The notes below the pieces were generated by a model, which made no database searches, had not been told where the DNA came from, and saw only the letters and a list, made by a program, of their open reading frames with translations. The translations under genes and the position numbers were made by a program. A stretch of DNA of 34,080 bases from a virus, in the IMG/VR virus record IMGVR_UViG_3300035034_001911, positions 1 to 34,080 of that record; one strand, given 5' to 3'. Shown here piece after piece: positions 3-24,462 of the stretch (positions are counted from its first letter, which is position 1; every line of letters starts with the position of its first letter).

Positions 3-407
3 GGTAGATTTATTGAAGTAGAAGTAAAGGTATCGAAGTCAGACCTAATGGCCGACTTCAAAAAATATAAGCACGAATATTACCTACACCAATATAAAAC
101 AGGTGAACCCTTAAAAGATTCACGTAGCTGGAAATGGTATAACAATTATGTACCTAAGCAATTTTTCTTTGCGGTGCCTGAAGAGATGTTAGAGTACACA
201 TTAAATGCGGTTGAAGATTTGCCCTACGGAGTTATATGCTACAGACATAGTAATATCTCAAGTTGTAGAAGAGTCAGAATTGAGAAACGTGCAAAAAAAC
301 TTCATGACAAACCTGTACCTACTAATGTGATAGACGATGTACTTTTAAGGATGTCTAGTGAACTTTGTAACTTCCATATAGATAGGGCAAACAAACAATG
401 GACATGA
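3..407 (+). CDS. PD-(D/E)XK nuclease-like protein, 5' end outside window
   Basis: The frame is open from the left edge, so this is the C-terminal 134 residues of a longer protein. An internal ATG at 48 exists but would discard conserved sequence. The first visible residues contain IEVEVKVSKSDL, matching the beta-strand E-x-K motif of PD-(D/E)XK-fold proteins (including MmcB-like repair proteins). It is followed by a KxxKHxYY segment, a strand with FFFAVPEEM and a basic KRAKKLHDKP stretch, also usual in that group. The catalytic Asp would lie upstream and cannot be seen. The last 10 nt overlap the terminase gene, so the two are probably co-translated. A role in DNA processing next to the packaging motor is an inference. 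Family assignment is moderate; activity is unproven. Confidence 0.6.
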   Translation, partial: GRFIEVEVKVSKSDLMADFKKYKHEYYLHQYKTGEPLKDSRSWKWYNNYVPKQFFFAVPEEMLEYTLNAVEDLPYGVICYRHSNISSCRRVRIEKRAKKLHDKPVPTNVIDDVLLRMSSELCNFHIDRANKQWT

Positions 408-1936
408 TACTACCAGAAAATGATGATTTAAAACCTGAGTGGGCTAAAAGAAGTTTGCTAGATTTTATAACATATACAAAACCAGACTATGAAGTTAACT
501 GGCACCATGAATATATATGTAAAAAGTTAGATGAATTTTTAGACCCTAACTCAAAAGTTGAAAGGTTAATCATAGAAGCCCCCCCGCGTTCTGGAAAATC
601 TGAGATAGTTTCAAGAAGATTTCCTGCATACGCATTAGGTAAAAATCCAAAACATGAAATCGTACTAGCTTCATACGCATCACCCTTAGCACAAAGAATG
701 AACAGAGATGTTCAGAGAATAATGGATGATGAGTTATATCATAATGTTTTTCCAAACACACAACTCAACTCTGCCAATGTAGCAAAAAGTTCTAGAGGTA
801 ATTGGATTAGAACTTCTGACTTATTTGAAGTTTGTGGCCACGGTGGTTCGTTTAGGAGTACAGGGGTAAACGGTAGTTTAACTGGTCAAGGTTTAACAAT
901 AGGTATAATTGATGACCCTATAAAAGATTGGAAGGAAGCGACAAGTAAAACTATAAAAGATGGTGTATGGGAATGGTATCAATCAGTTTTCTATACAAGG
1001 CTTAACCCTAAGTTCGGTAAAATAATTGTAATGAATACTAGGTGGGCCGAAGATGACTTAACAGGTAGACTACTAGCCCTAGCAGAAAAAGATGGTGAAG
1101 CTGACCAATGGGAAGTTTTAAGATTTCCGATGATTCAAGAAAAGACTAGGTACACACATCCTGCAGACCCTAGGGAAATAGGTGACTTACTTTGGCCTGA
1201 AAGGTTTAATGCTAAAAAAGTTACAAGTTTTAAAAAGACTATGGGTAGTAGAATTTTTGGAGCTATGTATCAACAAAGACCCGCACCCGATGAAGGTGGG
1301 TTAGTCCATAGGGATTGGTGGCAGTACTATACTAAGGCACCTAGCTTAGAAGATTTTGACTACATAAGTATGTCGTGGGACTTTTCTTTTAAAGGTACCC
1401 AAAATGCAGATTATGTTGTTGGGCAAGTTTGGGGTAGAAAGGGTGCCAAGTATTATCTACTAGATCAAGTACGTGACCAAATGAATTTCTCGTCTACCGT
1501 GATGGCCGTAAAAGCCCTAGCTAGAAAATGGAATACCTACAGAGAAATCGTTGTAGAGGAAAAAGCTAACGGTGCTGCAATTATTGATACACTTAAATCT
1601 GAAATAAGAGGTATCATACCTTATAGTCCTAGAGAGTCTAAGGAAGCTAGGGCTTCCAGTATCTCACCTTTAATTGAGGCAGGAAATATTTTCTTACCTG
1701 ACCCCGACATAGCACCTTGGATAATGGACTACGTAGAAGAATGGGCCGTATTTCCAAACGGTGCTAATGATGACCAAATTGATAGTACGTCCCAAATGCT
1801 TATACGTTTTCAAAAGTCAAAAACTTTTCTTGAGGTACTTAGTTATGAGGAAGAAGCCTTTATTGCTCCCGAAGAAGAAAAGGGCATTTTGGATATGTTT
1901 TGGGGCAACAAGTCACGAGGTGGTCTAGACTTTTAA
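398..1936 (+). CDS. Terminase large subunit (ATPase-nuclease packaging motor)
   Basis: 512 residues, full length for a large terminase. The ATPase domain has Walker A APPRSGKS (residues 61-68), a hydrophobic Walker B strand ending IIDD (166-173) and the coupling motif NTRW (213-216). The C-terminal RNase H-like nuclease domain shows its acidic residues in order: D328 in SMSWDFSF, E387/E388 in VVEEKANG and D458/D459/D462 in ANDDQID. The enzyme pumps DNA through the portal into the prohead and cuts the concatemer. The start overlaps the upstream gene by 10 nt. No small terminase subunit is visible here; it may lie upstream. The sequence resembles the Terminase_6 type seen in many large myoviruses. 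Confidence 0.95.
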   Translation: MDMILPENDDLKPEWAKRSLLDFITYTKPDYEVNWHHEYICKKLDEFLDPNSKVERLIIEAPPRSGKSEIVSRRFPAYALGKNPKHEIVLASYASPLAQRMNRDVQRIMDDELYHNVFPNTQLNSANVAKSSRGNWIRTSDLFEVCGHGGSFRSTGVNGSLTGQGLTIGIIDDPIKDWKEATSKTIKDGVWEWYQSVFYTRLNPKFGKIIVMNTRWAEDDLTGRLLALAEKDGEADQWEVLRFPMIQEKTRYTHPADPREIGDLLWPERFNAKKVTSFKKTMGSRIFGAMYQQRPAPDEGGLVHRDWWQYYTKAPSLEDFDYISMSWDFSFKGTQNADYVVGQVWGRKGAKYYLLDQVRDQMNFSSTVMAVKALARKWNTYREIVVEEKANGAAIIDTLKSEIRGIIPYSPRESKEARASSISPLIEAGNIFLPDPDIAPWIMDYVEEWAVFPNGANDDQIDSTSQMLIRFQKSKTFLEVLSYEEEAFIAPEEEKGILDMFWGNKSRGGLDF

Positions 1937-2461: not shown

Positions 2462-2701
2462 ATGGGAAAAATTAGAGACTTACTAGACCAATCAGAAAAT
2501 CAAAGAATGGAATTTTACAAAGTTGGTGATAAAGTTCACCAAGTAAACCGTATCCCAGAAGACGGTGGTAATGGTGGTAAGCATCGTAGAGTAATTCACA
2601 ATGCCGATGGTTCTAAAGAAGCTGAAGATTTTATCAGTGCTGAAGAATATGCAAAGCTATCTAAAGGCGAACGTGTAGACGCTAATACCGTAGGTAAATA
2701 A
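2462..2701 (+). CDS. Small capsid-targeted (tagged) protein, unknown function
   Basis: 79 residues, first gene of the tagged array, after a 90-nt gap and an AGGAG site at about 2451. It opens MGKIRDLLDQSE, the shared N-terminal motif. No clean L/I-x-E cleavage site follows at the usual position; RME at 15-17 is a weaker candidate. The body is hydrophilic with a compact, possibly beta-rich middle (KVGDKVHQVNRI) and a Gly/Asn-rich GGNGGKHRR stretch. No known domain is recognised. The next tagged gene follows after 2 nt. Packaging in the prohead is inferred from the tag only. Confidence 0.8.
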   Translation: MGKIRDLLDQSENQRMEFYKVGDKVHQVNRIPEDGGNGGKHRRVIHNADGSKEAEDFISAEEYAKLSKGERVDANTVGK

Positions 2702-2703
2702 TT

Positions 2704-3174
2704 ATGGGAAAATTTTCAGAGTTACTAAAACATATTCAAGAAGATAATGGTAAGACTTCTGAAGACAATGACCATTATCATACCTACGAAGTTAATGACG
2801 AAGGTAATGGTAAGACTATCAAAACTATAGGTGATGTAAACGAACATGTTCACACTATTGAAGAGTTTGATATTCAAATGTCTAAAGATCACGACCATGA
2901 TATTCCAAAGAAAAAACCTAAAGTAAATGAAGAAGAAAATTTCTCCATGAAGATTGTTAAGAACAATGCTATAGGTAAATCAGGACTAGACCTTGCATTT
3001 GCAAGTGCTAAGAAAATGAAGGGTGTCAGTGTACCCGATGATTCAATAGCTATTACACCAAATACCAAACTTAAGGGTGTTTCTAAAATAGAAGACCTCA
3101 AGTTAGGTATGAAAGTTAGTGGTAAATTTAGACAAACCAGTAGAGGTAAAGAAGCTACTGAACTAGAGGTATAG
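2704..3174 (+). CDS. Tagged His-rich internal protein
   Basis: 156 residues. It opens MGKFSELLKHIQE, with an I-x-E site at residues 11-13 where a gp21-like protease could cut. Residues 22-66 carry three evenly spaced H-x-H pairs (H24/H26, H48/H50, H63/H65), two of them in a DHYHTYEV...EHVHTIEEF pattern that resembles short HxH modules in other phage virion proteins and suggests metal binding. The C-terminal part (about 80-156) is a different, basic, probably folded domain ending KGKEATELEV. Spacing is 2 nt from the gene before and 1 nt to the gene after, so it is part of one operon. Confidence 0.82.
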   Translation: MGKFSELLKHIQEDNGKTSEDNDHYHTYEVNDEGNGKTIKTIGDVNEHVHTIEEFDIQMSKDHDHDIPKKKPKVNEEENFSMKIVKNNAIGKSGLDLAFASAKKMKGVSVPDDSIAITPNTKLKGVSKIEDLKLGMKVSGKFRQTSRGKEATELEV

Positions 3175-3175
3175 C

Positions 3176-3379
3176 ATGGGAAAAATAAAAGATTTATTAG
3201 AAGCTGAAATGTCATCTAAAGGTAATCCTAAATTACATAAAAAAGTTATGGATAAACTTAAAAAGCAGAAGGGTAACAGCGATGCTGATTATCACATGGA
3301 TTTAATTAAAGGTATGAACCCTAAGAAATTATCACAGTCGGATGTTGATACCCTTAAAGCATTTGATGATATGTACTAA
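3176..3379 (+). CDS. Small tagged basic protein
   Basis: 67 residues. It begins MGKIKDLLEAE, a close match to the array tag with an L-L-E site at 7-9. The remainder is Lys-rich and probably helical (KLHKKVMDKLKKQKG), with a C-terminal LSQSDVDTLKAFDDMY helix. No known domain is seen. One nucleotide separates it from the preceding stop. After cleavage it would release a basic peptide of about 58 residues, similar in scale to T4 internal peptides; this is inference. Confidence 0.78.
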   Translation: MGKIKDLLEAEMSSKGNPKLHKKVMDKLKKQKGNSDADYHMDLIKGMNPKKLSQSDVDTLKAFDDMY

Positions 3380-3409
3380 GGCTTCAGTGTATCTCAGGTA
3401 GATGCTACT

Positions 3410-3607
3410 ATGGGTAAATACATCGTTATGTTAGAGAAGGTTCTAAAGACCGCTAATAAATATAGAAACGGTAGTAAGTATAGTAGAAGACTTGAAAGTG
3501 ACTACGCAGGAAACGAGGATAAATTAAAAGAGATTGCTAGTGAAATGATGGATGCTACTAATATGGTCGAAGAGTCATTTAAAAAAATTCAAAGTAAAAT
3601 TGGATAA
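3410..3607 (+). CDS. Small tagged-like protein, unknown function
   Basis: 65 residues, starting MGKYIVMLEKVLK. The tag is divergent but keeps M-G-K-aromatic and hydrophobic residues before E9 (M-L-E). The rest looks alpha-helical and charged (YSRRLESDYAGNEDKLKE), without a recognised domain. The ribosome site is weak (AGGTAG about 10 nt upstream), unlike its neighbours. It lies in the same short-gene run, 30 nt after the previous gene and 20 nt before the next. Confidence 0.7.
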   Translation: MGKYIVMLEKVLKTANKYRNGSKYSRRLESDYAGNEDKLKEIASEMMDATNMVEESFKKIQSKIG

Positions 3608-3627
3608 AACAATATTGGAGAAACGAC

Positions 3628-3936
3628 ATGGGAAAAATTAGCGAACTATTAGGTAATAAGAAAACTAAAACAGACGAAGCGGTTAACATAGATAACATTA
3701 TCAAAGAACTTATTGATACAGGTTTTTCAAAAGATAATGAATCTCAAATGAAGGCGGTTCAACTATTAAAAGGTTTGGCTACTTCAGATGACCCAAAATC
3801 AAATGCTTTTATGAAAAAGTTAGATGCTTTTACTTCTGGACTTAAAGCAAATGAAGAAGATGATGATGAAGACGAAGATGATAGTGATGATGATAGTGAT
3901 GATGATAGTGATGATGAAGATGAAGATGATAAATAG
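3628..3936 (+). CDS. Tagged acidic prohead core protein, gp67-like in character
   Basis: 102 residues. It begins MGKISELLGNKK (I-S-E at 4-6), then a helical middle (about 20-72), then an almost purely Asp/Glu/Ser tail (about 76-101) written as a tandem DDSD repeat. This composition resembles T4 gp67, a small prohead core protein with a long acidic C-terminus, though no sequence homology can be claimed from repeats. The encoding DNA contains three near-identical 12-bp units (about 3883-3918), prone to slippage. It has a good ribosome site (GGAG at 3617-3620). A role in scaffold-core assembly or counter-ion handling in the head is inference. Confidence 0.8.
   Translation: MGKISELLGNKKTKTDEAVNIDNIIKELIDTGFSKDNESQMKAVQLLKGLATSDDPKSNAFMKKLDAFTSGLKANEEDDDEDEDDSDDDSDDDSDDEDEDDK
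3883..3918 (+). repeat. Three 12-bp tandem units encoding the acidic DDSD repeat
   Basis: The unit AGTGATGATGAT occurs at 3883, 3895 and, with one final mismatch, 3907. It lies within the acidic tail of the core protein and preserves frame, so copy number can change without disrupting the protein. Confidence 0.85.
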
Positions 3937-3939
3937 TCA

Positions 3940-4191
3940 ATGACTAAAAAAGCTGAACGTAAAAGAAACGCGGTTAAAAAGGCTAAGGAGGAAGTAAAAT
4001 CTTCTAGTCTTAATCGTCCTAGTTACGCAAAGATGTTTTTAGAGTGGCGAGAAAATAGACCCTCTAAATTACTCAAAGAATTAAAAGAAATGGGATATTT
4101 AAAGAATGAAACTAATAGAGATGTACGAAAGGACAAGTCTAGGGAATGTGAAAGGGATGTTTCCAAAGGGAAAAAGAAAACCCCTTCCTAG
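3940..4191 (+). CDS. Small highly basic protein, unknown function
   Basis: 83 residues, about one third Lys/Arg, beginning MTKKAERKRNAVKKAKEE. It lacks the array tag. It starts 4 nt after the stop of the acidic core protein, and the pair may form an acidic-basic partner set (inference). Its last 86 nt overlap the next gene in another frame, and that part of the protein (RDVRKDKSRECERDV...) is low complexity and may be an overprinted tail. No recognised domain; DNA or scaffold binding would fit its charge. Confidence 0.62.
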   Translation: MTKKAERKRNAVKKAKEEVKSSSLNRPSYAKMFLEWRENRPSKLLKELKEMGYLKNETNRDVRKDKSRECERDVSKGKKKTPS

Positions 4192-4600
4192 CACTCAAGA
4201 CATGGACAACCTAAAAGTTTCTACTATGAATCTTACCTCGACAACTCGTGTACTAGCTCAACTACTCTCAAAACTAAATAAAACAAACCCGAGCAAAGAC
4301 CTAACTCAGGCAGTAATTAATACTAGCAGAACTTCAGACGCGGCTAGGGCTTTACTAAAGAAACTAGACACATATAAACACTTTGACTCAATACCTGTAA
4401 AAGATTTTAAAACAAAACTAGAGGGTATGTTTAGAGATGTATTCTCATTCTTAGATGGTGCAGAAAATTACATTACAAAAGCAGATGTATCAAAATCAGG
4501 TCAAGAAAAAAGGATGCTATTTCTAGCAAAACAGGAAGCTAAAGATATTTTAAACGGGGCTAGAATGATTAATGATAGAATCAAAAGGTCAGGACTATAA
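4106..4600 (+). CDS. Putative internal/core protein, helical
   Basis: 164 residues from ATG 4106. The first residues MKLIEMYERTS form a divergent tag-like helix with L-I-E (3-5) and M-Y-E (6-8); the protein at 11276 has a similar M-Y-E. Later starts at 4157 and 4202 are possible because 4106 has only a weak ribosome site and overlaps the previous gene by 86 nt. The body is predicted mostly helical (LTSTTRVLAQLLSKLNK, ARALLKKLDTYKHF, MFRDVFSFLDGAENY). No known family is recognised. Its stop overlaps the next tagged start (TAATG), implying coupling. Confidence 0.72.
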   Translation: MKLIEMYERTSLGNVKGMFPKGKRKPLPSTQDMDNLKVSTMNLTSTTRVLAQLLSKLNKTNPSKDLTQAVINTSRTSDAARALLKKLDTYKHFDSIPVKDFKTKLEGMFRDVFSFLDGAENYITKADVSKSGQEKRMLFLAKQEAKDILNGARMINDRIKRSGL

Positions 4601-5067
4601 TGGGTAAATTTAGAAAACTATTAGATGAAGCTGAAGTAATACTAAAAGGTAAAAACAAAGTTACTAGGGGGGTACCCACAGATAGTAGGGGTAAACCTTT
4701 ATCTATATCAATGCAAAGAATTATGAAGGCTACTAAAGAACTAGAAAAAGCTGACGGTTTTAAACTTAAGACATCTTTAGCAGATGTGGTTATGAAATTA
4801 AAAAAATTCCAAGATGAGGTTAAAAAACTACCTAAAGGTAATAATGGTTATAGTAGTATCCGAACTAAAACTAAAAATAATTTTGAAAAAGCCATTACCT
4901 CTTTGAGTAACATGGTGGTCAATATAAAAAAGAAGGGTCTAAAAGCCGTTGAATCAAATAATAAGGAATTAGAGTTATGGGAAAGTTTAGAGATATCTTG
5001 TCAGACTATAGAGAACTGGTTGAAAAAACAATTACCTTCAAAGGAAGAAAAAAGTTTGGACAAGTAG
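4600..5067 (+). CDS. Tagged internal protein with best T4-like targeting sequence
   Basis: 155 residues starting MGKFRKLLDEAEV. Aligned without gaps to the T4 internal-protein tag MKTYQEFIAE|A it shares M1, an aromatic at 4, hydrophobics at 7-8, E10 and A11, so the cut would fall after E10. The rest is Lys-rich and helical (KKFQDEVKKLPKG, NFEKAITSLSNMVVNIKKKG), like a basic internal protein. ATG overlaps the previous stop, with AGGA 6 nt before it. Its last 91 nt overlap the P-loop gene in another frame, so the C-terminal 30 residues are overprinted. Function is unknown. Confidence 0.8.
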   Translation: MGKFRKLLDEAEVILKGKNKVTRGVPTDSRGKPLSISMQRIMKATKELEKADGFKLKTSLADVVMKLKKFQDEVKKLPKGNNGYSSIRTKTKNNFEKAITSLSNMVVNIKKKGLKAVESNNKELELWESLEISCQTIENWLKKQLPSKEEKSLDK

Positions 5068-5843
5068 TTATAGCTGCGGGTGGTGCAGGTAGTGGCAAGG
5101 GTTTTGCCCTTAGTCAGTTTGTGGGGCTACCAAACGCTAAGACTTTTGATGTAGATGCTTTAAAGTCTAAACTTATAAAATTGGCTGCACTTAAAGGTGA
5201 TAAAGAAATAGCGGGACTTGATTTAAGAAATCCAAAAGATGTTGCTAGACTACACATGATAGTAAAAGAAAAAGGTATAGCAGATAAAGAGGTAAACTCA
5301 TTTCTAGGTTCTGCTAACAAAGACAAACTACCTAATATAATTTTTGATAAAACAGCTAAGTCTAGAGAAGATATAACTAAGACAGTAGATCAAGTAATGG
5401 CCTATGGTTACAAACCTGAAGATATACACCTTGTGTGGGTTTTAACTAACTACAAAGTAGCCTTCAAAAGAAATATCACAAGAAGTAGAGTAGTACCTAG
5501 AGATATATTTTTACAGACACATAAAGGTGCAGCAAGCACTATGAATAAGATTATAAAGGGTGATGTACCATCTAATGTTGATGGTGAAATATATGTTATT
5601 TTGAATAATACAGAAGAGACTAAACCTGTAGTAGATAAGGAAGGTAACATAGTACTTAATACTAAAGGCCAACCAACACCTAAAAATTTCACATTTATAA
5701 AACTTAAGTCAGTTGGTAAACCTATTATTTCAGATAAAGAGGCACTAGAACAGGTAACCGATTGGGTAAACAAAAATGCTCCTAAGTCAGCACTTAAAGA
5801 AAATTACACGGTAGAAATCGGGATAGGTTCATGGGAAGAATAA
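4977..5843 (+). CDS. Tagged P-loop kinase-like protein (zeta-toxin/AAA_33-like)
   Basis: 288 residues. The tag MGKFRDILSDYRELVE (L-V-E at 14-16) is followed by a Rossmann-like strand and Walker A GGAGSGKG (35-42). Other kinase-like marks are FDVDALKSKL (58-66), a Walker-B-like strand NIIFDKT (120-126, D124), the strand HLVWVL, and an Arg cluster KRNITRSRVVPRD (164-176) with H182. This arrangement resembles P-loop small-molecule or polynucleotide kinases of the zeta-toxin/AAA_33 group; the substrate cannot be told. It starts inside the preceding gene with AAGGA about 9 nt upstream. The tag suggests it is packaged and possibly injected to modify a host target early in infection; this is inference. 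A DNA-end or nucleotide kinase acting in the capsid is an alternative. Confidence 0.82.
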   Translation: MGKFRDILSDYRELVEKTITFKGRKKFGQVVIAAGGAGSGKGFALSQFVGLPNAKTFDVDALKSKLIKLAALKGDKEIAGLDLRNPKDVARLHMIVKEKGIADKEVNSFLGSANKDKLPNIIFDKTAKSREDITKTVDQVMAYGYKPEDIHLVWVLTNYKVAFKRNITRSRVVPRDIFLQTHKGAASTMNKIIKGDVPSNVDGEIYVILNNTEETKPVVDKEGNIVLNTKGQPTPKNFTFIKLKSVGKPIISDKEALEQVTDWVNKNAPKSALKENYTVEIGIGSWEE

Positions 5844-6292
5844 GTAGCTTATTAGAAACTATATTTATTCCCAAAGGTAACCTAGGTATACCAAGAAGGA
5901 ATATGCCGCAGGTAGAAGACCAAGACCAAAAAGACTTTTTTTCTTTTATGAAATCAAATGATATAAGCGTTACTAAGAAAAAAGTTAAAGCCAATAAGAT
6001 CAAACCTATTCAAAAAGAAATACGGTCAGATGTAGTGAAGGGCCTGGCTAAGAACGACCCTGAAAAATTAAAAAAGTCACTAATTATATCTAAAGATAAT
6101 TTCCTACTTGATGGTCACCATAGATGGCTAGCACTTCTAAACCAAGACCAAGAGATAACTTTAGATGTTATTGTTCTTGGTACAGGCATGAAGAAACTTT
6201 TAGATGTTGCAAGGAAATATCCTAAGATAGTTTTTAAGGATACAGATAATAAAGTATTTAAAAGTATAGACCCTAAGCTAAAATCTAATTAG
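5831..6292 (+). CDS. Tagged ParB/sulfiredoxin-like domain protein
   Basis: 153 residues. It begins MGRISSLLETIF (L-L-E at 7-9). Residues about 48-118 form a ParB/Srx-type domain: KKKVKANKIKPIQKEI (50-64), then a strand ISKDNFLLDGHHRWLA (86-101) with the family signature DGHHRW (94-99), then LDVIVLG. Such domains bind nucleotides or act as nucleases in some members. Single-domain ParB-like proteins occur in phage virion gene clusters. It overlaps the kinase-like gene by 13 nt and converges with the minus-strand gene at 6285. Tag and place make it a candidate packaged and injected protein. Whether it cuts DNA or hydrolyses NTP is unknown. Confidence 0.85.
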   Translation: MGRISSLLETIFIPKGNLGIPRRNMPQVEDQDQKDFFSFMKSNDISVTKKKVKANKIKPIQKEIRSDVVKGLAKNDPEKLKKSLIISKDNFLLDGHHRWLALLNQDQEITLDVIVLGTGMKKLLDVARKYPKIVFKDTDNKVFKSIDPKLKSN

Positions 6293-7085: not shown

Positions 7086-7373
7086 ATGGAAAAAAAGATT
7101 TACGTAAAGAACTTAAGTTTTGCAACTACTGAAGATGAATTAAAAAATGAATGTAGTCAGTACGGAAGTGTGCTTGATGTACGGATAATCAAAACAACCG
7201 ATGAGAATACTGGACAAAGAAGAAGTAGAGGTTTCGGGTTTGTAACTTTTGAGAATACCAGTGAAGCTGAATCAGCTATTCGTAATTTACATAATGCGAC
7301 ACTACATGATAGAACACTTCATGTTGAAGAAGCTATTGATAAAAGGAACCTAAGTAGGCCTTTAAATTCATAA
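7086..7373 (+). CDS. Single-domain RRM RNA-binding protein
   Basis: 95 residues forming one RNA-recognition motif. RNP2 is IYVKNL (5-10) and RNP1 is RGFGFVTF (48-55), including the aromatic residues that stack on RNA bases; the helix TEDELKNECSQYG (15-27) and closing strand TLHVEEA (77-83) complete the fold. Proteins of this shape are common in eukaryotes and in some bacteria (cyanobacteria, Bdellovibrio-like and others) as cold- or stress-related RNA-binding proteins, and rare in phages. It sits 2 nt after the zinc-ribbon gene. Acquisition from a bacterial host and a role in phage or host mRNA stability are inferences. Domain identity is certain by sight. Confidence 0.93.
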   Translation: MEKKIYVKNLSFATTEDELKNECSQYGSVLDVRIIKTTDENTGQRRSRGFGFVTFENTSEAESAIRNLHNATLHDRTLHVEEAIDKRNLSRPLNS

Positions 7374-7453: not shown

Positions 7454-9130
7454 GTGCGAGTAAATCATATAAAAATTAACCCTAAGTTAAAGTGGGCTAC
7501 GACAAACATACAAGTACCTACCAGTAATCGAGGTGGGGGTGTAGACTTAGACCCTAATATGCCTAGTCCTTCTGAATTAGCGGAAGCTATAAAAAATAGA
7601 ACCTTTGAAGATACCTTTGAACTAGATGACCATAATGTAGCTGCAGCTTATTCGGAGTTGTATACTAATGTTAGTCAAAGTCGTATGGGTATTATTAGAC
7701 AGGTTGAGAGAATGTCACAGTACTACCTAGTAGATACTATTGTTTCTCAGTTTATAGAAGATGCCTTAACACCTGAGATATCTACGAATGATATTCTATC
7801 TGTTAGTTATGAAGAAGAAAATGAAGAAAATTCACTTGTGCAAAAAGAGATTGAGGCATTGGATAAACAACTAGACTTTGACCAATTAGCTTTAGATATT
7901 GCACCTGACTTAGTTAGAAATGGTGAGTACACTTTAAAGAATGATTTTGGAAAAGAGGGTAGTAAAAAAGGTATTAAACATATTAGGGATATTGTCGAAC
8001 AAGGTAACATAGTAGCTATTACACAAGATGGTAAAATTAAGGGTTACTTAGAGATGAACGATAGGGCTAATAAGCTAATCGTGTACCCACCTAAACATTT
8101 TACAAAATTCGTATTAGCAGGTGACAGGGTTAGAGTTAATCTTAAAAAACATGTACCCGAAGAATACTTAAAAACAGAAGAAGCAAAAAAACTTATGGCC
8201 ATGCTTCCACGTTATGTACGTGTTGGTAAGTCAATGATATTTCCTGTATTACCAAAAATAAAAGAATTGGAACTATTAGAAAAATTGGTACCTGCTACAA
8301 AACTTGCTAAATTATCAGGTGGGTCTATTGTAGGAATGCAAGTACCAGAAGCATTTGATATTGGTGATGCACTAAAAGCTACTAAGAGAGTAGAAGGTTT
8401 AGTAAATAATAAAATAGCTATTGACGATAGTATTGGTGAAGTAACAGTACAAGCTATTATGTCTTCTGCAGGTAGAGTAAAAGTTATTCCTGTATTTGGG
8501 GACAAAGGTAACTTATCAAAATTAGATTATAAATCAGATGAACCAGATGACCTATTAGGTTCCGTACAAGAAACAAGACAAGTTATATGTGACTCTATTG
8601 GGATACCCTATGAACTATTATTCCGTTCAGACTCAGGAAGTAAATCTGAGACAATAAAGAGATATGCAAAATACTTAAGAAGACTTAAAAATATTCAAAG
8701 GGCTATCACAAAGGGTATCACACAAATAGTTTATAACCACCTAGTAAACAAGGGTATAGACTTTGAACCTGATAAAGTAAAAGTTGAATTTAGAAATAAA
8801 TTAGTTGAAATTGATAACCTAGATAAACTTGAACACATGGATGTAACAGTTTCACTATTAGGAAATCTTAAAACTTTTGTTGAAGACCTTTTAGCAGAAG
8901 AATCACCTGTAAGAAAACACATAAACATCGAAGCATACAAAGATTACCTTAAATCCCAGTTAGAAACTATAGGCCTAGGTGATTTAATACAGGAAGAAGA
9001 AAACGAATTTGGCAATGATAACGATGATGATACAGATGATTTTATCTCACGTTCAGATAGTGGTGAACCTGTAGAAGACCCAGACGATAACCCTTTGGAT
9101 ACAGAAGAACCTGAAGATGGTGAACAGTAG
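7454..9130 (+). CDS. Portal protein, T4 gp20-like
   Basis: 558 residues, close to T4 gp20 (524). It forms the dodecameric ring at the capsid vertex through which DNA passes and on which the prohead core starts. The order (before protease, scaffold and capsid) and features of the T4-like portal family support the call: an N-terminal region with SRMGIIRQVERMSQYYLVDTI, VYPPKHFTKFVLAG, and a C-terminal PYELLFRSDSGSKSETIKRYAKYLRRL segment with a long helix. The last 50 residues are very acidic (NDDDTDDF...EDPDDNPLDTEEPEDGEQ). It starts with GTG after an AGTAGGG site. The stop TAG shares its G with the GTG of the next gene. Confidence 0.88.
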   Translation: MRVNHIKINPKLKWATTNIQVPTSNRGGGVDLDPNMPSPSELAEAIKNRTFEDTFELDDHNVAAAYSELYTNVSQSRMGIIRQVERMSQYYLVDTIVSQFIEDALTPEISTNDILSVSYEEENEENSLVQKEIEALDKQLDFDQLALDIAPDLVRNGEYTLKNDFGKEGSKKGIKHIRDIVEQGNIVAITQDGKIKGYLEMNDRANKLIVYPPKHFTKFVLAGDRVRVNLKKHVPEEYLKTEEAKKLMAMLPRYVRVGKSMIFPVLPKIKELELLEKLVPATKLAKLSGGSIVGMQVPEAFDIGDALKATKRVEGLVNNKIAIDDSIGEVTVQAIMSSAGRVKVIPVFGDKGNLSKLDYKSDEPDDLLGSVQETRQVICDSIGIPYELLFRSDSGSKSETIKRYAKYLRRLKNIQRAITKGITQIVYNHLVNKGIDFEPDKVKVEFRNKLVEIDNLDKLEHMDVTVSLLGNLKTFVEDLLAEESPVRKHINIEAYKDYLKSQLETIGLGDLIQEEENEFGNDNDDDTDDFISRSDSGEPVEDPDDNPLDTEEPEDGEQ

Positions 9131-10482
9131 TGAGTGACACTTTTAAACCCACAAGTGCTGTATCTAAGGAAGCTCAAAAAGCTGTGGACTTTAAAAAAGA
9201 ACATGGTGATGAAGTAGACGCAGGTACACAGGTAGGTTGGATACGTGCAAATGATCTAGCAAAGAGTAGGGAAGTATCCATTGATATTATCAAAAAGATG
9301 GTATCCTTTTTTGCTAGGCATGACGGTAACCAAAAGATTTCACCCGAACATAAAAACGAACCTTGGAAGGACAAAGGTTATGTGTCTTGGTTATTGTGGG
9401 GTGGTGATGCAGGTAGGGATTGGGCAAAAAATATTTTGAAGGAATATGAAAAAAATAACAAGGATGAATCAATGAATGAAGAAAAAACACTATGTGAAAA
9501 GGTGCTTGAAGGTTTAGATGAAGCAAAATCTGAACGCAATTTAGTTCAATATAATTCTAACTCAAATACTTATAGCCCAACGATTAAGACCAAAGGCCAA
9601 CTTGAGGCGGGTGTATATGAGATCAAACAAAGTATGCAAGGTTTGTTCTTTGAAAAGCGTGATATAGCTTCAGATGGTTTACTAAAATTTGAAGATAAAA
9701 GAAACGCTAGCATACTTGACGAAGTAGATAAGTTCAGAAAAATGAAGGAAGACTTTGAGAATATTGGTATGAACCATAAAAGAGGGATGCTTTTATATGG
9801 TAAGCCAGGCACAGGTAAGTCGTGTTTAATTAAACTCATGTCAGAGAGTGCAGTAGATGAAGGTGACGTAGTATTTATTGTGAATGAACCCCACCTACTT
9901 AAAGAGGGCTTAAAAAAATTCAAAGAAGTTGAACCTGATAGAATCGCAATTGTTATCATGGAAGAAATTGATGAAGTACTAAGATACGCCCAACGTGCTA
10001 TTTCAGAAATCTTAGACGGTCAAGACCAAGTTAACAATGTACTTTTCGTAGGTACTACAAACCATATTGAAAGAATACATCCTAAATTTTTAAGAGAAGG
10101 AAGATTTGATTCTAAGATTGAAATAGGTACACCACCTAAGTCAGGACGTATAGCATTCCTAAAAGGTAAATTAGGTATCAATGAAGCTGATTCAATCGTA
10201 GAGGAAATTGCAGATAAAACAGACGGTTTTACCTTTGCACAATTAAGAGAATATCTTATTTCTGTATATTGTTATAAGCGTGACCCTGATAAAGTTATTG
10301 AGCGTATCCAACGTGGTACAGGTATGGACGAATGTCTAGACAAGACCAATGAACAAATAGCTGAATCAGTATTTTACTATTACTATGCACAGGATAAAAC
10401 GCGTGAAGACTCACAAGGTTCTAATAGAATCGCAGCTAGCAGAAATCAAGACTATTTAAAAAATCTTTTAAAGGGACTTTAA
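9130..10482 (+). CDS. AAA+ ATPase with phage head-associated N-terminal domain
   Basis: 450 residues, GTG start fused to the portal stop. Residues about 10-107 form a small domain with GWIRANDLAKSREVS and GYVSWLLWGGDAGRDWA, a pattern that recurs in phage head-maturation proteins. Residues about 160-400 are an AAA+ module of the FtsH/Cdc48/Vps4 kind: Walker A GKPGTGKS (224-231), Walker B IAIVIMEEID (272-281), sensor 1 VGTTN (307-311) and LREGRFD with likely arginine fingers (R322, R325). Walker B has Glu where Asp is usual (MEE for xDE). M115 (nt 9472) follows AAGGA and could start a shorter ATPase-only form; that segment also holds V-L-E and L-D-E sites. It may remodel prohead or portal complexes, or be packaged. 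Domain identity is firm, role is not. Confidence 0.85.
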   Translation: MSDTFKPTSAVSKEAQKAVDFKKEHGDEVDAGTQVGWIRANDLAKSREVSIDIIKKMVSFFARHDGNQKISPEHKNEPWKDKGYVSWLLWGGDAGRDWAKNILKEYEKNNKDESMNEEKTLCEKVLEGLDEAKSERNLVQYNSNSNTYSPTIKTKGQLEAGVYEIKQSMQGLFFEKRDIASDGLLKFEDKRNASILDEVDKFRKMKEDFENIGMNHKRGMLLYGKPGTGKSCLIKLMSESAVDEGDVVFIVNEPHLLKEGLKKFKEVEPDRIAIVIMEEIDEVLRYAQRAISEILDGQDQVNNVLFVGTTNHIERIHPKFLREGRFDSKIEIGTPPKSGRIAFLKGKLGINEADSIVEEIADKTDGFTFAQLREYLISVYCYKRDPDKVIERIQRGTGMDECLDKTNEQIAESVFYYYYAQDKTREDSQGSNRIAASRNQDYLKNLLKGL

Positions 10483-10484
10483 TA

Positions 10485-11276
10485 ATGGGCAAGTTTAAAG
10501 ATTTACTAGAACAGATAAATCAAATGGCACCTGAAGCAATAGCTAAGGCTTTTAAAGATAGGATAGAACTATTTGATTTTGATGGTATCACAGTGGAAGA
10601 TGTAGATATTGATGCTGAAGGTGGTATCACAGTAACTTTTGTAGACTCGGAAGGTGATGAACTATCTATACTCTTCGCATACGAAAATGATGAAGGTGTA
10701 ACAGCTACTATCCTAGATGGTGAAGATGACGAGGACTTTATTGTTATTGACTTAGACCCTTTAGACCCACCTACAATTGTACAAGGTTTCATGGGTATTA
10801 AATACCCTAAACTGGACAACCTAAACTGGATGAATAAGTCAGCACTTGCTTCTATATTTGTTTCAGGTGATATGGGTAATGATGATGACCCCGATTTAGA
10901 TGGTCACTTAACTCAAAAAGATATTGAAAAAAGGCAAATGCCAAAACAGTTCGGATACTTTAAAGCCGTTGAAGAGTTAGATGGTGATGTTTTAGTTGAA
11001 GAAGGGGAAGACCTAGAAATCAATGAACGTAAGGTAACTGTAGTTCGTGGTGGTAAAAAAGTACGTATACCTGTAGTTAGAAAAATACGTAGGAAAAGAT
11101 TAACGGCTACCCAAAAGTCAGGTATCAGAAAAGCGGTACGTAAAAGAAAACAGAAGGCAGGGGCTATCTCACGTAAGAGAAAAAAGTCTTTAGCACTTAG
11201 AAAAAGGTCAGGCCTTAAAAAGGGTAAGTTCACTAAATTCCAAAAAACTCAAGGTACATCGAATAGGAAAAGATAA
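10485..11276 (+). CDS. Tagged core protein with histone-like basic C-terminus
   Basis: 263 residues. It starts MGKFKDLLEQINQ with an L-L-E site at 7-9. Residues 30-150 are acidic and probably beta-rich (DFDGITVEDVDIDAEGG). Residues about 183-263 are extremely basic (KIRRKRLTATQ, RKAVRKRKQKAG, SRKRKKSLALRKR), like a histone tail. Further possible protease sites such as L-V-E at 170-172 could free the basic part during maturation. It starts 2 nt after the ATPase gene and overlaps the next start by 1 nt. Prohead core component that becomes DNA-condensing internal protein is my reading; similar basic proteins occur in other phage head clusters. Confidence 0.85.
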   Translation: MGKFKDLLEQINQMAPEAIAKAFKDRIELFDFDGITVEDVDIDAEGGITVTFVDSEGDELSILFAYENDEGVTATILDGEDDEDFIVIDLDPLDPPTIVQGFMGIKYPKLDNLNWMNKSALASIFVSGDMGNDDDPDLDGHLTQKDIEKRQMPKQFGYFKAVEELDGDVLVEEGEDLEINERKVTVVRGGKKVRIPVVRKIRRKRLTATQKSGIRKAVRKRKQKAGAISRKRKKSLALRKRSGLKKGKFTKFQKTQGTSNRKR

Positions 11277-11557
11277 TGGCTAGAAAATTTAAAAAACTAA
11301 TGCTTATGTATGAAGCAAAAGAAATTGTCACAGTACTGGTAGATAAAAATAAGTATCAGCTACTTGGTGATGGTGGTATATCCAAATTAATGTCAAAAGA
11401 AGAAATGTCAAAACTCCTAGATAGTATAGAAATAAGTTCGCTAGATACAAAAAGTAATGCTACAAAAGACATACTAAAAGAGGTTGATACTACCAGAGAT
11501 AACCAAGTTGATCTAGAAGTTGATAGTAAATTTATAAAGAAATTAGGATTGAGGTAA
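11276..11557 (+). CDS. Small tagged prohead core-like protein
   Basis: 93 residues starting MARKFKKLMLMYEAKE. The tag is a variant with M-Y-E at 11-13 then Ala, resembling the start of the 4106 gene (E-M-Y-E). The remainder is charged and helical (SKLMSKEEMSKLLDSIEIS), with acidic and basic residues mixed. No known domain. Its position between portal and protease is that of the small core genes 67 and 68 in T4, so a core role is likely by synteny only. ATG overlaps the previous stop (TAATG). Confidence 0.72.
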   Translation: MARKFKKLMLMYEAKEIVTVLVDKNKYQLLGDGGISKLMSKEEMSKLLDSIEISSLDTKSNATKDILKEVDTTRDNQVDLEVDSKFIKKLGLR

Positions 11558-11558
11558 T

Positions 11559-11915
11559 ATGTTACCTAGAAGCTATGTTAAAGATATTAATAAAAAAGTT
11601 AATAGTAGAAAAGAAACTACTAATGAAGAACTTACAAGCAAACAGAAAAATATAAAAAAAGAGATAGCTAGGTTTACCACATCCCTAGGGGTAAAAGTAC
11701 TTAGGTCAAGTGGTGAACAATTAATAAAGTTACAAGCGGCTATAGGGTTATTGAACCAAGCACAAATGATTGCAGAAGTATCTGAGAATGAAGCTAAGAA
11801 ATTGTTTGCAATAGCACGAAGTCTTAAATCAGTAAATGAGGTCAAGGATGAAAAGAGAAGAAGAAGGGATCAAGGAAGGCTTAACGAAAATAGAAAAAAA
11901 GGTACTGATAGGTGA
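11559..11915 (+). CDS. Small helical protein of the head cluster, unknown function
   Basis: 118 residues, MLPRSYVKDINKKVNSRKE at the start, with GAGG 4 nt before the ATG. It is predicted fully helical and basic: KQKNIKKEIARFTTSLGVKVL, IKLQAAIGLLNQAQMIAEVSENEAKKLFAIARSL, then an Arg/Lys-rich end (DEKRRRRDQGRLNENRKK). The final 68 nt overlap the membrane-protein gene, so this basic end may be overprinted. No recognised family. By position it may be a prohead core component similar in placement to T4 gp68. Confidence 0.68.
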   Translation: MLPRSYVKDINKKVNSRKETTNEELTSKQKNIKKEIARFTTSLGVKVLRSSGEQLIKLQAAIGLLNQAQMIAEVSENEAKKLFAIARSLKSVNEVKDEKRRRRDQGRLNENRKKGTDR

Positions 11916-12150
11916 GAGTACCTTCTTATCTTTTGGTTTTGTTGTAACTATCATACTAGCCGTTGTATACACTGTTAATATTGATGGTAAGGCTAGTGCC
12001 AACGCAAGGGCTAATGCCACTATTATCCAGAAGCAAGATAGGTTCGGACAACAATACCTGAAACAAATGGAAATATTAAATGATGAATTAAAGACCTTAA
12101 ATACCAGACTAGGTAGGATAGAAGGTAAATTAGATTCTATAAAGAGATAA
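11848..12150 (+). CDS. Single-pass membrane protein with coiled coil
   Basis: 100 residues from ATG 11848, chosen because GAGG lies 6 nt upstream; ATG 11836 (104 residues) has no ribosome site. A charged N-terminus (MKREEEGIKEGLTKIEKK) is followed by one membrane segment (about 26-45, FLSFGFVVTIILAVVYTVNI) and a coiled-coil-like C-terminus (EILNDELKTLNTRLGRIEGKL). Prohead assembly of T4-like phages starts at the membrane, so this could anchor the initiator; an inner-membrane spanin or holin-like role is also possible by topology. Neither is shown. It overlaps the previous gene by 68 nt in another frame. Confidence 0.7.
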   Translation: MKREEEGIKEGLTKIEKKVLIGESTFLSFGFVVTIILAVVYTVNIDGKASANARANATIIQKQDRFGQQYLKQMEILNDELKTLNTRLGRIEGKLDSIKR

Positions 12151-12158
12151 CGGAGATA

Positions 12159-12899
12159 GTGTTGAAGTTTCAATCAGATAATGATGCAAAATTGTTTTTA
12201 ATCGAAATAGGTCAAGTCGCTAAGATTGATGGTGTAACTAAAGATTTAAAACCTACTGAAGAGATGATTGGTTTACTGAAGAAAACAAGGGGTAATCTTA
12301 CGCGTGGTTTAAAGTCGTTTAGAAGATCACAGGCTAGTAAGGGTGCATGGAGAAAATACTCTACAGAAATAATGCGTGGTATAAAATCTTTTCATCGAAG
12401 CACTGAAGGTAAAAGGTTCCATAGAAATATGTCTCGTTTCTTATTAAGAAAAGATTTTACAGGATACTTAACAGGTCAACCACTATCTTCCAGAAATGAA
12501 TCTGTTATGGACTTTTGGGAAAAAGCAGATTTTATAAAGTCCATATCATCGGCTAAAACGCATTTGTTTATCGAACTTGAATATTATCACCCAATGTATG
12601 AACAAATGGGCTTAGAAGACCTTGTACTTAACCACATACATGAACTAAATGATATCGAACAGAAGATACTTCACGACAAAGATATATCAGAGTCAGACTA
12701 CAACCTAATAGGTCTATTGTGTGAAACTAATGCGGTGGTTAAAAACCTAGCAGAACAATCAAGTAAAGAAATAGAGGAAGTTCACTCAATAAGAAACAAA
12801 ATAAAAGACACCCTTATTAGTAAAGGACATAGTGAAGATGACACAAACTTCTTTTCATTAGTCACAAGTAACTTAAAAAAAGCATTAAAATTAGATTGA
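12159..12899 (+). CDS. Hypothetical head-cluster protein
   Basis: 246 residues if the GTG at 12159 is used; TTG at 12162 gives better spacing (6 nt) to the GGAG at 12152 and may be the real start. No ATG is available nearby. Residues 40-110 are very basic with repeated FRRS/FHRS elements (LKSFRRSQASKG, IKSFHRSTEGKRFHRNMSRF), followed by an acidic, helical half (FIELEYYHPMYEQMGLEDL, ELNDIEQKIL). No recognised domain. It lies just before the protease gene and ends the operon that begins at the portal. DNA or scaffold binding by the basic half is a guess. Confidence 0.72.
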   Translation: MLKFQSDNDAKLFLIEIGQVAKIDGVTKDLKPTEEMIGLLKKTRGNLTRGLKSFRRSQASKGAWRKYSTEIMRGIKSFHRSTEGKRFHRNMSRFLLRKDFTGYLTGQPLSSRNESVMDFWEKADFIKSISSAKTHLFIELEYYHPMYEQMGLEDLVLNHIHELNDIEQKILHDKDISESDYNLIGLLCETNAVVKNLAEQSSKEIEEVHSIRNKIKDTLISKGHSEDDTNFFSLVTSNLKKALKLD

Positions 12900-12975: not shown

Positions 12976-14367
12976 ATGCAATTTAAACAAGATATTTTTG
13001 AACCTGACCTACACTTTACACTGGAAGAAGCTAGTGGTGAAGAACAAGGCCAGTCAATCTTAGCGAAAGTTAGAGGTTGTTTCTTTGTACCAGATGGTAT
13101 CTCAAGAAATAAAAGATTCTATCCTAAGAGTCTTTGGGAAAAAGCACTTAATAAAAAAGACATAAAAGAAAAGTTAGCTTCTAAAAGAATGTTCGGTACT
13201 ATCGGACATGACCAAGTAATAAATGACAATGCAATATTAGAAGGTAAAATTTCACATATAGTAACCAATTTAAGTATAGACAGTAATGGACAAGGAATTG
13301 GAGAAGCACTCATTCTCGATACTCCCGCAGGTCGCGGTCTAAACACACTTCTTAAAGCGGGTAGTAAACTATTTGTTTCAAGTAGGGCACTAGGTAAATT
13401 CAAGGGTGAAAAAAACGGATTACCTGTAGTAGATGAAAATTCATATCAGCTACAGACATTTGATTTTGTAATTGACCCTGGCTTCCTAGAGGCACACCCA
13501 AACATTAAGGAGGCTTTAGAACCAGAACTTGCATCGGATTTTGACGAAAAACAAATAACAAACCATAATAATACAAACATAGGAGATGGTGAGATGAATG
13601 ATAAAGAACTCGCACAGCACATTATTGATGAAAACACAAAAGTAAAGAATGATTTAACTACTGCAGTTGAAGAAAACAGTACTCTTAAAGATGAATTAGC
13701 AGTTGTTAAAAATGACAATGAAAATCTTCAAGAACAAGTAACTGAATTTGATACTGTAAAAGAAGAACTTGAAGGTTATAAATCTTTAGGTACTGTAGAA
13801 GAAATCAAAGAAGCTACTGAAGCTAAAGAAAAAGCTGAAAAAGAATTAGCTGAATTTAAAGCTATCGATACAGATGTAGAAAACTTATCTGCACAAGATG
13901 TTATTGAAGCAATTGATAAAGCTCATGAGAGATTATCAGAATATAAAAAAGTTGGAAGTCCTGAAGGGATTACAGATACTCTAGAAAAACTAGGTGAATT
14001 TAAGGACGCAGTTCTTGAGTACGGAAACTTAGAAGAACTAGAAGAAATCTATAACTTTTCTGCAGAACTTATTTCTAAAGAAAAAGAAGCTAAGAAAAAC
14101 GAGGCAATCGTAGAACTAGCTGAAGAACTTGGTGTATCAAAAGAAAAAATCACTAGAGTATATGACAAGCTATCTGTAGAAGAAATCAAAGAAGCATTCG
14201 GTGGTCTTAAAGAAGATTCAGAGAAGCAAGACATCAAAGAAACTTTTTCAAAAGATAAAGTTGATCTAGATGAAAATAATGGTGAAGACGAAGATGAAAC
14301 ATTTGAGTTTGAATCAGACAAACCGTTAACTGAAAGGTTAATGCAAGGTTTTAATAAGAGAAAATAA
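12976..14367 (+). CDS. Prohead protease-scaffold fusion (gp21/gp22-like)
   Basis: 463 residues. The N-terminal half (1 to about 185) is a T4 gp21-type prohead serine protease: RNKRFYPKSLWEKAL (44-58), catalytic His in TIGHDQ (H78), catalytic Ser in KLFVSSRALG (S135/S136) and FDFVIDPGF (162-170). T4 gp21 has its His and Ser at similar places (85 and 140). The C-terminal half (about 207-463) is a Lys/Glu-rich coiled coil (LKDELAVVKNDNENLQEQV) with an acidic end, typical of the internal scaffold gp22. The protease cuts core proteins after L/I-x-E and then itself. Upstream AGAAGG serves the ATG. A nested start at M207 may yield scaffold alone. Confidence 0.93.
   Translation: MQFKQDIFEPDLHFTLEEASGEEQGQSILAKVRGCFFVPDGISRNKRFYPKSLWEKALNKKDIKEKLASKRMFGTIGHDQVINDNAILEGKISHIVTNLSIDSNGQGIGEALILDTPAGRGLNTLLKAGSKLFVSSRALGKFKGEKNGLPVVDENSYQLQTFDFVIDPGFLEAHPNIKEALEPELASDFDEKQITNHNNTNIGDGEMNDKELAQHIIDENTKVKNDLTTAVEENSTLKDELAVVKNDNENLQEQVTEFDTVKEELEGYKSLGTVEEIKEATEAKEKAEKELAEFKAIDTDVENLSAQDVIEAIDKAHERLSEYKKVGSPEGITDTLEKLGEFKDAVLEYGNLEELEEIYNFSAELISKEKEAKKNEAIVELAEELGVSKEKITRVYDKLSVEEIKEAFGGLKEDSEKQDIKETFSKDKVDLDENNGEDEDETFEFESDKPLTERLMQGFNKRK
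13594..14367 (+). CDS. Nested in-frame scaffold protein (internal start)
   Basis: ATG 13594 is codon 207 of the protease-scaffold gene, in frame, and preceded by a textbook AGGAG (13581-13585) with 8 nt spacing. It lies exactly at the border between protease and coiled-coil halves. Translation from it gives a 257-residue scaffold (MNDKELAQHIIDENTK...) without protease. This is the arrangement of lambda C/Nu3 and related phages, giving much scaffold and little protease from one message. Evidence is ribosome site plus domain border; the product itself has not been observed. Confidence 0.75.
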   Translation: MNDKELAQHIIDENTKVKNDLTTAVEENSTLKDELAVVKNDNENLQEQVTEFDTVKEELEGYKSLGTVEEIKEATEAKEKAEKELAEFKAIDTDVENLSAQDVIEAIDKAHERLSEYKKVGSPEGITDTLEKLGEFKDAVLEYGNLEELEEIYNFSAELISKEKEAKKNEAIVELAEELGVSKEKITRVYDKLSVEEIKEAFGGLKEDSEKQDIKETFSKDKVDLDENNGEDEDETFEFESDKPLTERLMQGFNKRK

Positions 14368-14450
14368 TTATAGATTAGGATTCAATCTGCACTTCAGGGA
14401 AGAGTTTTATTTGTAGTAAAAAAACAATTAACAACAAATAGAGGTATACA

Positions 14451-15875
14451 ATGGATTTTACACAAAATTACCTAGAGGCTAAGAATAGTCAACTAGTAGA
14501 GTGGATGAAAAAAAACCACAAAGATCAAATTAAAGCACTAGAGAACTCACCTCTAGCTGAAACTCGTTCAATTACGGAAAATGATATTGCTAACCTAGCT
14601 ATTCAGTACCGTAACTTTGAGCTTTACAAAAGCATGGCAGAAAACAATGGTTCACTAGGTAACCTAGGACAACTACCAAAAGTTGCATTATCAGTTGTTA
14701 CAGCAACTATGGGTGCATCGATTTTACCAATGATTTCTTCGGTTCAACCAATTGAAGAACAAAGAGGTATCATCTACTTTAGACAAATTGTTTCAAGAAA
14801 TACTAGAGGAAGTCAAACTGCAGGTGATGTAGTTGTTGACCCTAGAACAGGTAGCGTAACACCTTCAGGATATGCTTCTAACGAACTACTTGCTGAAGAA
14901 GCGGTTGCAGCTACAGTTGATGCTCAACTTCAGTATACGTTTACATTAGCAAATGCTCCTATCCTTCCACAGTTCTTAAAAATCACTACTGATATTGCAG
15001 CTTCTCAAATTGCTGTAGATCAAGGTGCAATTAGTGCTGATAAGAATATTGGTATTCTTTATGGTAACGGAATTAGCGGTCAAGTAGACTACACTACAGG
15101 TGAAGTAACTATTGATTTTTCAGCTAACCCTGGCGTTGGTCAAAAAGTATTTGCTTCTTACCAACAAGACCTTGAGCGTGGTGAAGACTTACAAGCTATC
15201 TCTTCATTCATGGACTCAAAAGATATCCAAGCTAAAGTATATGCACTTAAGCAATCACAAGGTATGTTACAGTCGTTTACTCTTCAAAAAAGATTCGGTC
15301 AATCAATGCAAGAGCAACTTGCTTCTGACCTAGTTATGGAAGTAAACAGAGAAGTTGGTGGTGACGCTGTAAGACAACTTGATGCAAATGCTCAAGGTGT
15401 AACTACTTTCTCAAGAACAGCACAATCAGGTGTTTCTTTTGCAGAACACAAGTTAGAGTACAAAGATAAATTATACGAAGCTGAAAACGTAATGCTTTCA
15501 AATGCAGGTAGGGGTGCAATCAGTACTCTAGTTGTTGGTAGAAAACATGCTGCTTTCCTAAGAGGATTGCCTGGCTTTGAACTTCTTAATGATGGTAACA
15601 CTCTAGGTTCTCACTTATTTGGTAGACTAGATGGTATCACTATTATTAGAGTACCTGAGACTGCACTACTTGGTGAAGATAGAGGTATCGGACTTTATAA
15701 GGGTCAAAATCCTTATGAGGCAGCGGTAGTTTATTCTCCATTCATGCCAATGGCAGTTACAGACATGCTTCCAGAAGGGAAAAACCCTCTAGCAGGAATG
15801 CGTGGTGCTGCACAGATGAGTGGTGTAGATGTTGTTGTACCTCAGTACGCAACTAACATTAACTTAACTGCATAA
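14451..15875 (+). CDS. Major capsid protein, T4 gp23-like
   Basis: 474 residues, similar to gp23-type capsid proteins (about 470-520). Typical elements are MGASILPMISSVQPIEEQRGI (near 87-107), a central E-loop-rich region, and a C-terminal domain with ISTLVVGRKHAAFL and PYEAAVVYSPFMPM. The N-terminal region carries likely protease sites: L-A-E|T at 35-37 and I-T-E|N at 41-43, so a propeptide of about 37-43 residues is probably removed on maturation, shorter than the 65 of T4. Codon use is richer in favoured codons than its neighbours, as expected for the most abundant protein. GAGG lies before the ATG, and a strong terminator follows. Confidence 0.93.
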   Translation: MDFTQNYLEAKNSQLVEWMKKNHKDQIKALENSPLAETRSITENDIANLAIQYRNFELYKSMAENNGSLGNLGQLPKVALSVVTATMGASILPMISSVQPIEEQRGIIYFRQIVSRNTRGSQTAGDVVVDPRTGSVTPSGYASNELLAEEAVAATVDAQLQYTFTLANAPILPQFLKITTDIAASQIAVDQGAISADKNIGILYGNGISGQVDYTTGEVTIDFSANPGVGQKVFASYQQDLERGEDLQAISSFMDSKDIQAKVYALKQSQGMLQSFTLQKRFGQSMQEQLASDLVMEVNREVGGDAVRQLDANAQGVTTFSRTAQSGVSFAEHKLEYKDKLYEAENVMLSNAGRGAISTLVVGRKHAAFLRGLPGFELLNDGNTLGSHLFGRLDGITIIRVPETALLGEDRGIGLYKGQNPYEAAVVYSPFMPMAVTDMLPEGKNPLAGMRGAAQMSGVDVVVPQYATNINLTA

Positions 15876-24234: not shown

Positions 24235-24462
24235 ATGGGAAGAATAAGTAAATTATTGGAAGCTAAAGTCGTTATGACAATAAAGCCCACTAAGCATAAC
24301 GTAACCACACTCAAGAAACGTGGTATCTTTTCAGATGACTCTCGGTACTTCTTTGACATGTATGACAAGGTACTTAGCGGTAAAGAATATGAAAAAGAAA
24401 TAAAAGATAAATGGGATAATGCTATTGCAGATGAGTTCTCAAAAGCAGGATTAAAATTTTAG
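24235..24462 (+). CDS. Tagged small protein encoded before the tape measure
   Basis: 75 residues starting MGRISKLLEAKV, nearly identical in its first nine residues to the ParB-like gene (MGRISSLLE), with an L-L-E site at 7-9 then Ala. The body (TTLKKRGIFSDDSRYFFDMYDKVLSGKEYEKEIKDKWDNAI) is helical and charged, without known domain. It lies 3 nt after the small ORF, inside the tail module and 18 kb from the main tagged array. It may be a displaced internal protein, or the tag could have another meaning here. Confidence 0.8.
   Translation: MGRISKLLEAKVVMTIKPTKHNVTTLKKRGIFSDDSRYFFDMYDKVLSGKEYEKEIKDKWDNAIADEFSKAGLKF

Follow-up and report, generated by a model that had tools for sequence, protein, structure and literature searches.

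An AAA+ ATPase fused to a phage head-protein domain in the head operon of a T4-like virus: a candidate capsid-targeted internal head protein

The window, meaning the whole stretch analysed, is a 34,080-base IMG/VR virus contig carrying a module of T4-like head and tail genes (Table 1). An AAA+ ATPase gene had been predicted to lie in the head operon. This was confirmed, with portal, S77 protease, MCP and TerL all present by profile. The last base of the portal stop codon is also the first base of the GTG start of the ATPase gene (TAGTG). The original prediction also regarded the two genes as translationally coupled; the overlap makes such coupling possible, and the claim stands to that extent and not as an established fact. 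Several other genes of the module were noted. Judged from the sequence reading, a small RRM-type RNA-binding protein, which is unusual for a phage, is encoded at 7086-7373, and a protein with the look of an Rrf2-type regulator at 1997-2371, directly 3' of TerL. A small membrane protein (maximal hydropathy 2.27) is encoded near the ATPase gene at 11836-12150. Inside the protease gene, an in-frame ATG with a Shine-Dalgarno sequence opens an acidic coiled-coil, scaffold-like segment (13594-14367), which is probably a nested scaffold protein. Lambda C/Nu3 is a known case of a scaffold nested in a protease gene.

Table 1. Features of the head module and of the ATPase gene (window coordinates).
Feature	Coordinates	Strand	Remarks
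TerL (terminase large subunit)	398..1936	+	profile match
Cluster with leader MGK[FI]xxLL	2462..6292	+	starts 2462, 2704, 3176, 3410, 3628, 4600, 4977, 5831
gp20-type portal	7454..9130	+	Pfam E 5.3e-7; directly upstream of AAA gene
N-domain-AAA+ fusion gene, 450 aa	9130..10482	+	GTG start
All-helical N-domain, residues 1-112	9130..9465	+	pLDDT 94.6; no Pfam model
Shine-Dalgarno-like AAGGA	9460..9464	+	7 bases upstream of ATG 9472
Linker, residues 113-137, low confidence	9466..9540	+	pLDDT 52-57; leader position of relatives
Possible internal start Met115, in-frame ATG	9472..9474	+	would yield a 336-aa AAA protein
Second candidate site in linker, L121-C-E123	9490..9498	+	
Candidate prohead-protease site L129-D130-E131/A	9514..9522	+	motif from PMC9026906
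Beta-rich subdomain before AAA core	9541..9669	+	AF2 model
Walker A GKPGTGKS, residues 224-231	9799..9822	+	alignment of relatives
Walker B IVIMEEID, residues 274-281	9949..9972	+	alignment of relatives
R322 and R325, arginine-finger positions	10093..10104	+	invariant in 85 relatives
Gene after AAA gene, leader MGKFKDLLEQ	10485..11276	+	phrog_1053
S77 prohead protease, scaffold-like C-terminal part	12976..14367	+	Pfam E 2.5e-12
gp23-type MCP	14451..15875	+	Pfam E 2.3e-10

The AlphaFold (AF2) model of the ATPase gene product has a mean pLDDT of 87.4 and is divided into three parts. The AAA+ module covers roughly residues 138-400, and helices follow the AAA core at the C-terminus. The Pfam profile search matched AAA (PF00004) at residues 220-333 with an E-value of 4.6e-16. 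Judged from the alignment, all of the AAA catalytic motifs of the window protein are intact. Position 278 of the Walker B motif is glutamate in 85/85 relatives and position 279 is aspartate in 82/85, while E279 of the window protein is the canonical catalytic glutamate and thus the more canonical residue. Therefore, the motif is not degenerate, and the earlier concern that MEEID might slow hydrolysis is unfounded. The proposed FtsH/Vps4 affinity did not hold either. Bcs1 and YjoB rank first in the Foldseek search, with Bcs1 6u1y among the top matches. The VIA-align Z scores are 19.5 for YjoB (237 residues, 24% identity) and 18.3 for Bcs1, only slightly above other AAA proteins at 16-17. Among single-ring proteins of solved structure, YjoB also gives the best sequence match (7.3e-40). 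On the predicted model, the AAA module has a YjoB/Bcs1-like fold. An HExxH motif was searched for in the 450-aa protein and is absent, and no transmembrane segment was found in it (maximal 19-residue hydropathy 1.05). Therefore, the window protein can be classed neither as Bcs1 proper nor as FtsH.

The N-domain is not covered by any model in the Pfam search; DUF5872 and DUF5824, considered as known Pfam domains for it, match other stretches of the same proteins. The fold search in the PDB gave a best E-value of 1.9 and no fold match. On the other hand, the domain occurs stand-alone or fused in many phages, and the predicted fusion to a phage head domain was borne out by its recurrence in portals and head proteases. 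It was found in the HGTV-1 prohead protease, in the C-terminal part of the HATV-3 portal and in a Roseobacter phage protein encoded between portal and MCP. Among 43 multidomain relatives, at least 11 are portal fusions (8 match Phage_portal and the others further portal models) and about 6 are fusions to head-maturation proteases (XkdF or S78). Some of the 43 match major head proteins, and GNAT, ferritin-like and other enzyme domains occur in single cases. The N-domain shares 46% identity with an XkdF-domain phage protein (BFVD; rmsd 1.1 Å) and 49.5% with SCTP-2 gp459. Its invariant residues are G36, R39, F61, R63, H64, W87 and W90-GGD. The assignment of the N-domain as a head-protein domain is supported by these sequence comparisons. 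phrog_2859 covers both the N-domain and a ParB-like protein at 5831-6292, which bears the shared leader of the window described below. The nearest stand-alone N-domain proteins open with T4-like leaders, for example MKYIKLFEEFVSEA and MKRIKLFEEFLNES.

In a tree of 71 AAA domains, the window clade consists of 10 rows with support 99/95: the window, L023-L027, L029-L031 and phiXF1. T4-like head genes lie within 10 kb of the AAA gene in the window, L023, L024, L025, L027/28, L030 and L031, about 11 kb away in phiXF1 and about 20 kb away in L029; the fragment of L026 has no head genes. The second scan added six further clade members (L185, L187-L191). Linkage within 10 kb was found in L188 and L189 and weakly in L191. 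In L187, the AAA gene is part of a tail module, about 30 kb from the capsid gene; in L185, it is a long way from the capsid gene; and the fragment of L190 has no head genes. Since most of the window clade lies in or near T4-like head genes, the gene is not a stray insertion in that clade. No such link to head genes was seen in the distant clade (about 30% identity). The other 59 tree rows showed no head link with the models used, except for one tail-sheath match, one tail-tube match and a protease match in L077/L079. PF17289 gave no match in six contigs, and a cousin-seeded TerL model matched two of them, L027 and L030. Therefore, PF17289 misses these terminases. IMG/VR gave no matches when it was scanned with P0001 or the MCP as a single sequence, and alignment queries did succeed. 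In 84,980 bacterial and archaeal genomes, clade-A matches reach only 33-36% over long stretches and 39% over a short one. Two relatives have unusual genes. The capsid gene of L023 (13457-16433) is broken into three pieces, and an ORF lies between them at 14070-14768, which suggests an intron or homing element. In phiXF1 (L010), phiXF1_14 (8245-12261) encodes a protein of 1338 aa in which the AAA domain is preceded by about 1000 residues that look like repeats of small domains, and it may be a cleaved polyprotein. The literature search on the phiXF1 virion found no paper.

The AAA proteins of the window clade begin with short leaders. In several relatives, many other proteins of the phage carry the same leader, which has L/I-x-E at its end. 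For instance, L025 has 12 proteins with an M[SNT][KR]A-type leader including the AAA protein, whose leader is MSRAQKICEGLNQ; the same phage also has MSKAQKLLDIAEG, MNKAQKLLNVLDEE and nine more. In a permutation test, the AAA leader was closest to the N-termini of its own genome in L023, L025, L026 and L030, and also in L027/28, each other excepted. The test was not significant for L029, L031, L024, phiXF1 and the window, and L024 and L031 gave no leader signal in it. Third-position identity at identical residues is 0.52-0.61 and upstream identity is 0.30-0.33. The leader peptide is thus kept while the codons and the upstream DNA diverge, which indicates conservation at the peptide level and rules out a DNA-level repeat. 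T4 gp21 cleaves after L/I-x-E, and T4 capsid-targeting sequences have about 10 residues; in the IPIII leader, positions 4 and 7 serve targeting and 8 and 10 processing (PMC9026906). The inner head proteins of giant phages have propeptides of more than 100 aa that are thought to be CTS-like (PMC5694885).

The window has its own leader set, MGK[FI]xxLL, on ten proteins. Its leader MGKFRKLLDE/A fits the T4 capsid-targeting rule. A Zeta-toxin/kinase-like protein with an MGKF leader (4977-5843; Pfam 7.5e-5, phrog_5268 6.8e-56) is a candidate for head cargo. A leader-type protein, MGRISKLLEAK, is encoded between tail genes outside the head cluster (24235-24462). [LI]xE occurs within residues 5-22 in 27/41 leader proteins against a background of 0.12, an enrichment that is inflated because the list was partly hand-picked by eye. 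At the starts of the AAA proteins, it was found in 10/11 of the window clade and in 30/64 of the distant clade (p 0.008). It could be argued that the ATPase gene is carried in the late operon without being related to it and that the leader is no capsid signal, because the distant relatives are not near head genes and the function of the leader is drawn from analogy. However, linkage to head genes recurs across independent contigs and again in the second scan, and the N-domain fusion and the L-x-E pattern also speak against it. This is the most improbable of the explanations considered.

The window protein has no leader at its own N-terminus, and the position that the leader takes in the relatives lies behind its N-domain. 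Among the loci examined, the window gene is the only one in which the N-domain and an AAA module are joined. Only 2/109 internal in-frame ATGs, ATG 9472 and one other, have a Shine-Dalgarno sequence in front of them; that other one is the likely start of the nested scaffold inside the protease gene. Translation could restart at ATG 9472, and the resulting protein would be close in length to the AAA proteins of several relatives (301-332 aa). The Met115 peptide was compared with the MGKF leader of the window, and its own genome ranked 3/14, which is not significant. The linker holds two candidate protease sites, and L-x-E is a weak motif that occurs 13 times in the 450-aa protein.

In related phages, the same ATPase carries a tag resembling the one on T4 head cargo. 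Therefore, it is probably built into the new virus head. The explanation that we favour, with somewhat better than even confidence, is that the ATPase is an accessory, capsid-targeted internal head protein. The front part (the N-domain in the window and a short capsid-targeting-type leader in most relatives) would bring a YjoB/Bcs1-like ring into the prohead core. The S77 prohead protease would free or trim the ATPase at an L-x-E site of the linker. The ATPase would stay in the head after cleavage, would then possibly be ejected with the DNA and might act early in infection to remodel a protein of the host or of the phage. Operon position, clade linkage, the leaders shared in several relatives, protease motifs, N-domain fusions and AAA motifs were all taken from sequence, and from them we infer prohead entry, cleavage, ejection and a substrate. 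The ring might instead act outside the head as an assembly chaperone or translocase, which would load or fold head proteins at a membrane-bound portal or prohead without being packaged. This is rather unlikely but has several points on its side: the YjoB/Bcs1-type fold, the one-base overlap with the portal gene that makes coupling possible, and the small membrane proteins encoded near the window gene and shortly 3' of the AAA gene in L031 (11572-11988). The same role is proposed for jumbo-phage Bcs1-like AAA proteins (PMC7824862). However, it leaves unexplained why the ATPase bears the same leader as many small proteins, and the membrane anchor of Bcs1 is missing from the window protein.

Eight genomes of phages whose portal and capsid are the most similar to those of the window were searched, and no full match to the AAA protein was found; two have the N-domain only, one of these with weak AAA matches. 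Therefore, the AAA gene is accessory, and heads of this kind do not generally need the ATPase. Such absence from the closest cousin heads is expected of accessory cargo. It also bears on the prohead remodelling motor, which the original prediction put forward and which would act on capsid, scaffold or portal during maturation. The operon place and the fusion of the N-domain to portals and head proteases agree with a motor. However, related T4-like heads mature without the ATPase, T4 expansion needs cleavage only (PMC9026906), and the leaders point to a targeted internal head protein. A motor is therefore regarded as improbable as the leading mechanism.

If the internal head protein reading is true, an AAA+ machine in the head would extend what phages deliver or use inside the capsid by an ATP-driven remodeller. 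Alt is the enzyme cargo known from T4 heads. The head-assembly role proposed for phage Bcs1-like ATPases becomes directly testable in clade members such as phiXF1. Besides, the N-domain, which is widespread and lacks a Pfam model, seems to mark head-targeted proteins and could reveal further cargo. A broader proposal, that T4-like phages package and inject an AAA+ ATPase as an internal head protein, with the N-domain as a general module for docking enzymes into proheads, is conceivable but is put forward only tentatively.

The window protein resembles several known systems in part. YjoB, an AAA ATPase of Bacillus subtilis (PDB 7w42/7w46), is similar in AAA sequence and fold. However, it is a cellular protein without the head-associated N-domain or a capsid leader. 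The mitochondrial AAA translocase Bcs1 is tied with YjoB in fold likeness, whereas the window protein lacks a transmembrane segment and has the extra N-domain. Bcs1-like AAA proteins of jumbo phages have been proposed for head assembly, and the available part of that paper makes no mention of a head-operon position or shared leaders (Iyer et al. 2021, PMC7824862). The phrog_2859/N-domain proteins, such as the HGTV-1 prohead protease, the HATV-3 portal and SCTP-2 gp459, have the same N-domain without the AAA module. T4 IPI-III and Alt, which are internal head proteins with a capsid-targeting sequence, are similar in the L/I-x-E site, the S77 protease of the genome and the diverse mature parts, and their short shared N-terminal leader has a counterpart in several relatives of the window protein. 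In contrast, the T4 internal head proteins are not AAA+, and the window protein has a folded N-domain in the place of the leader.
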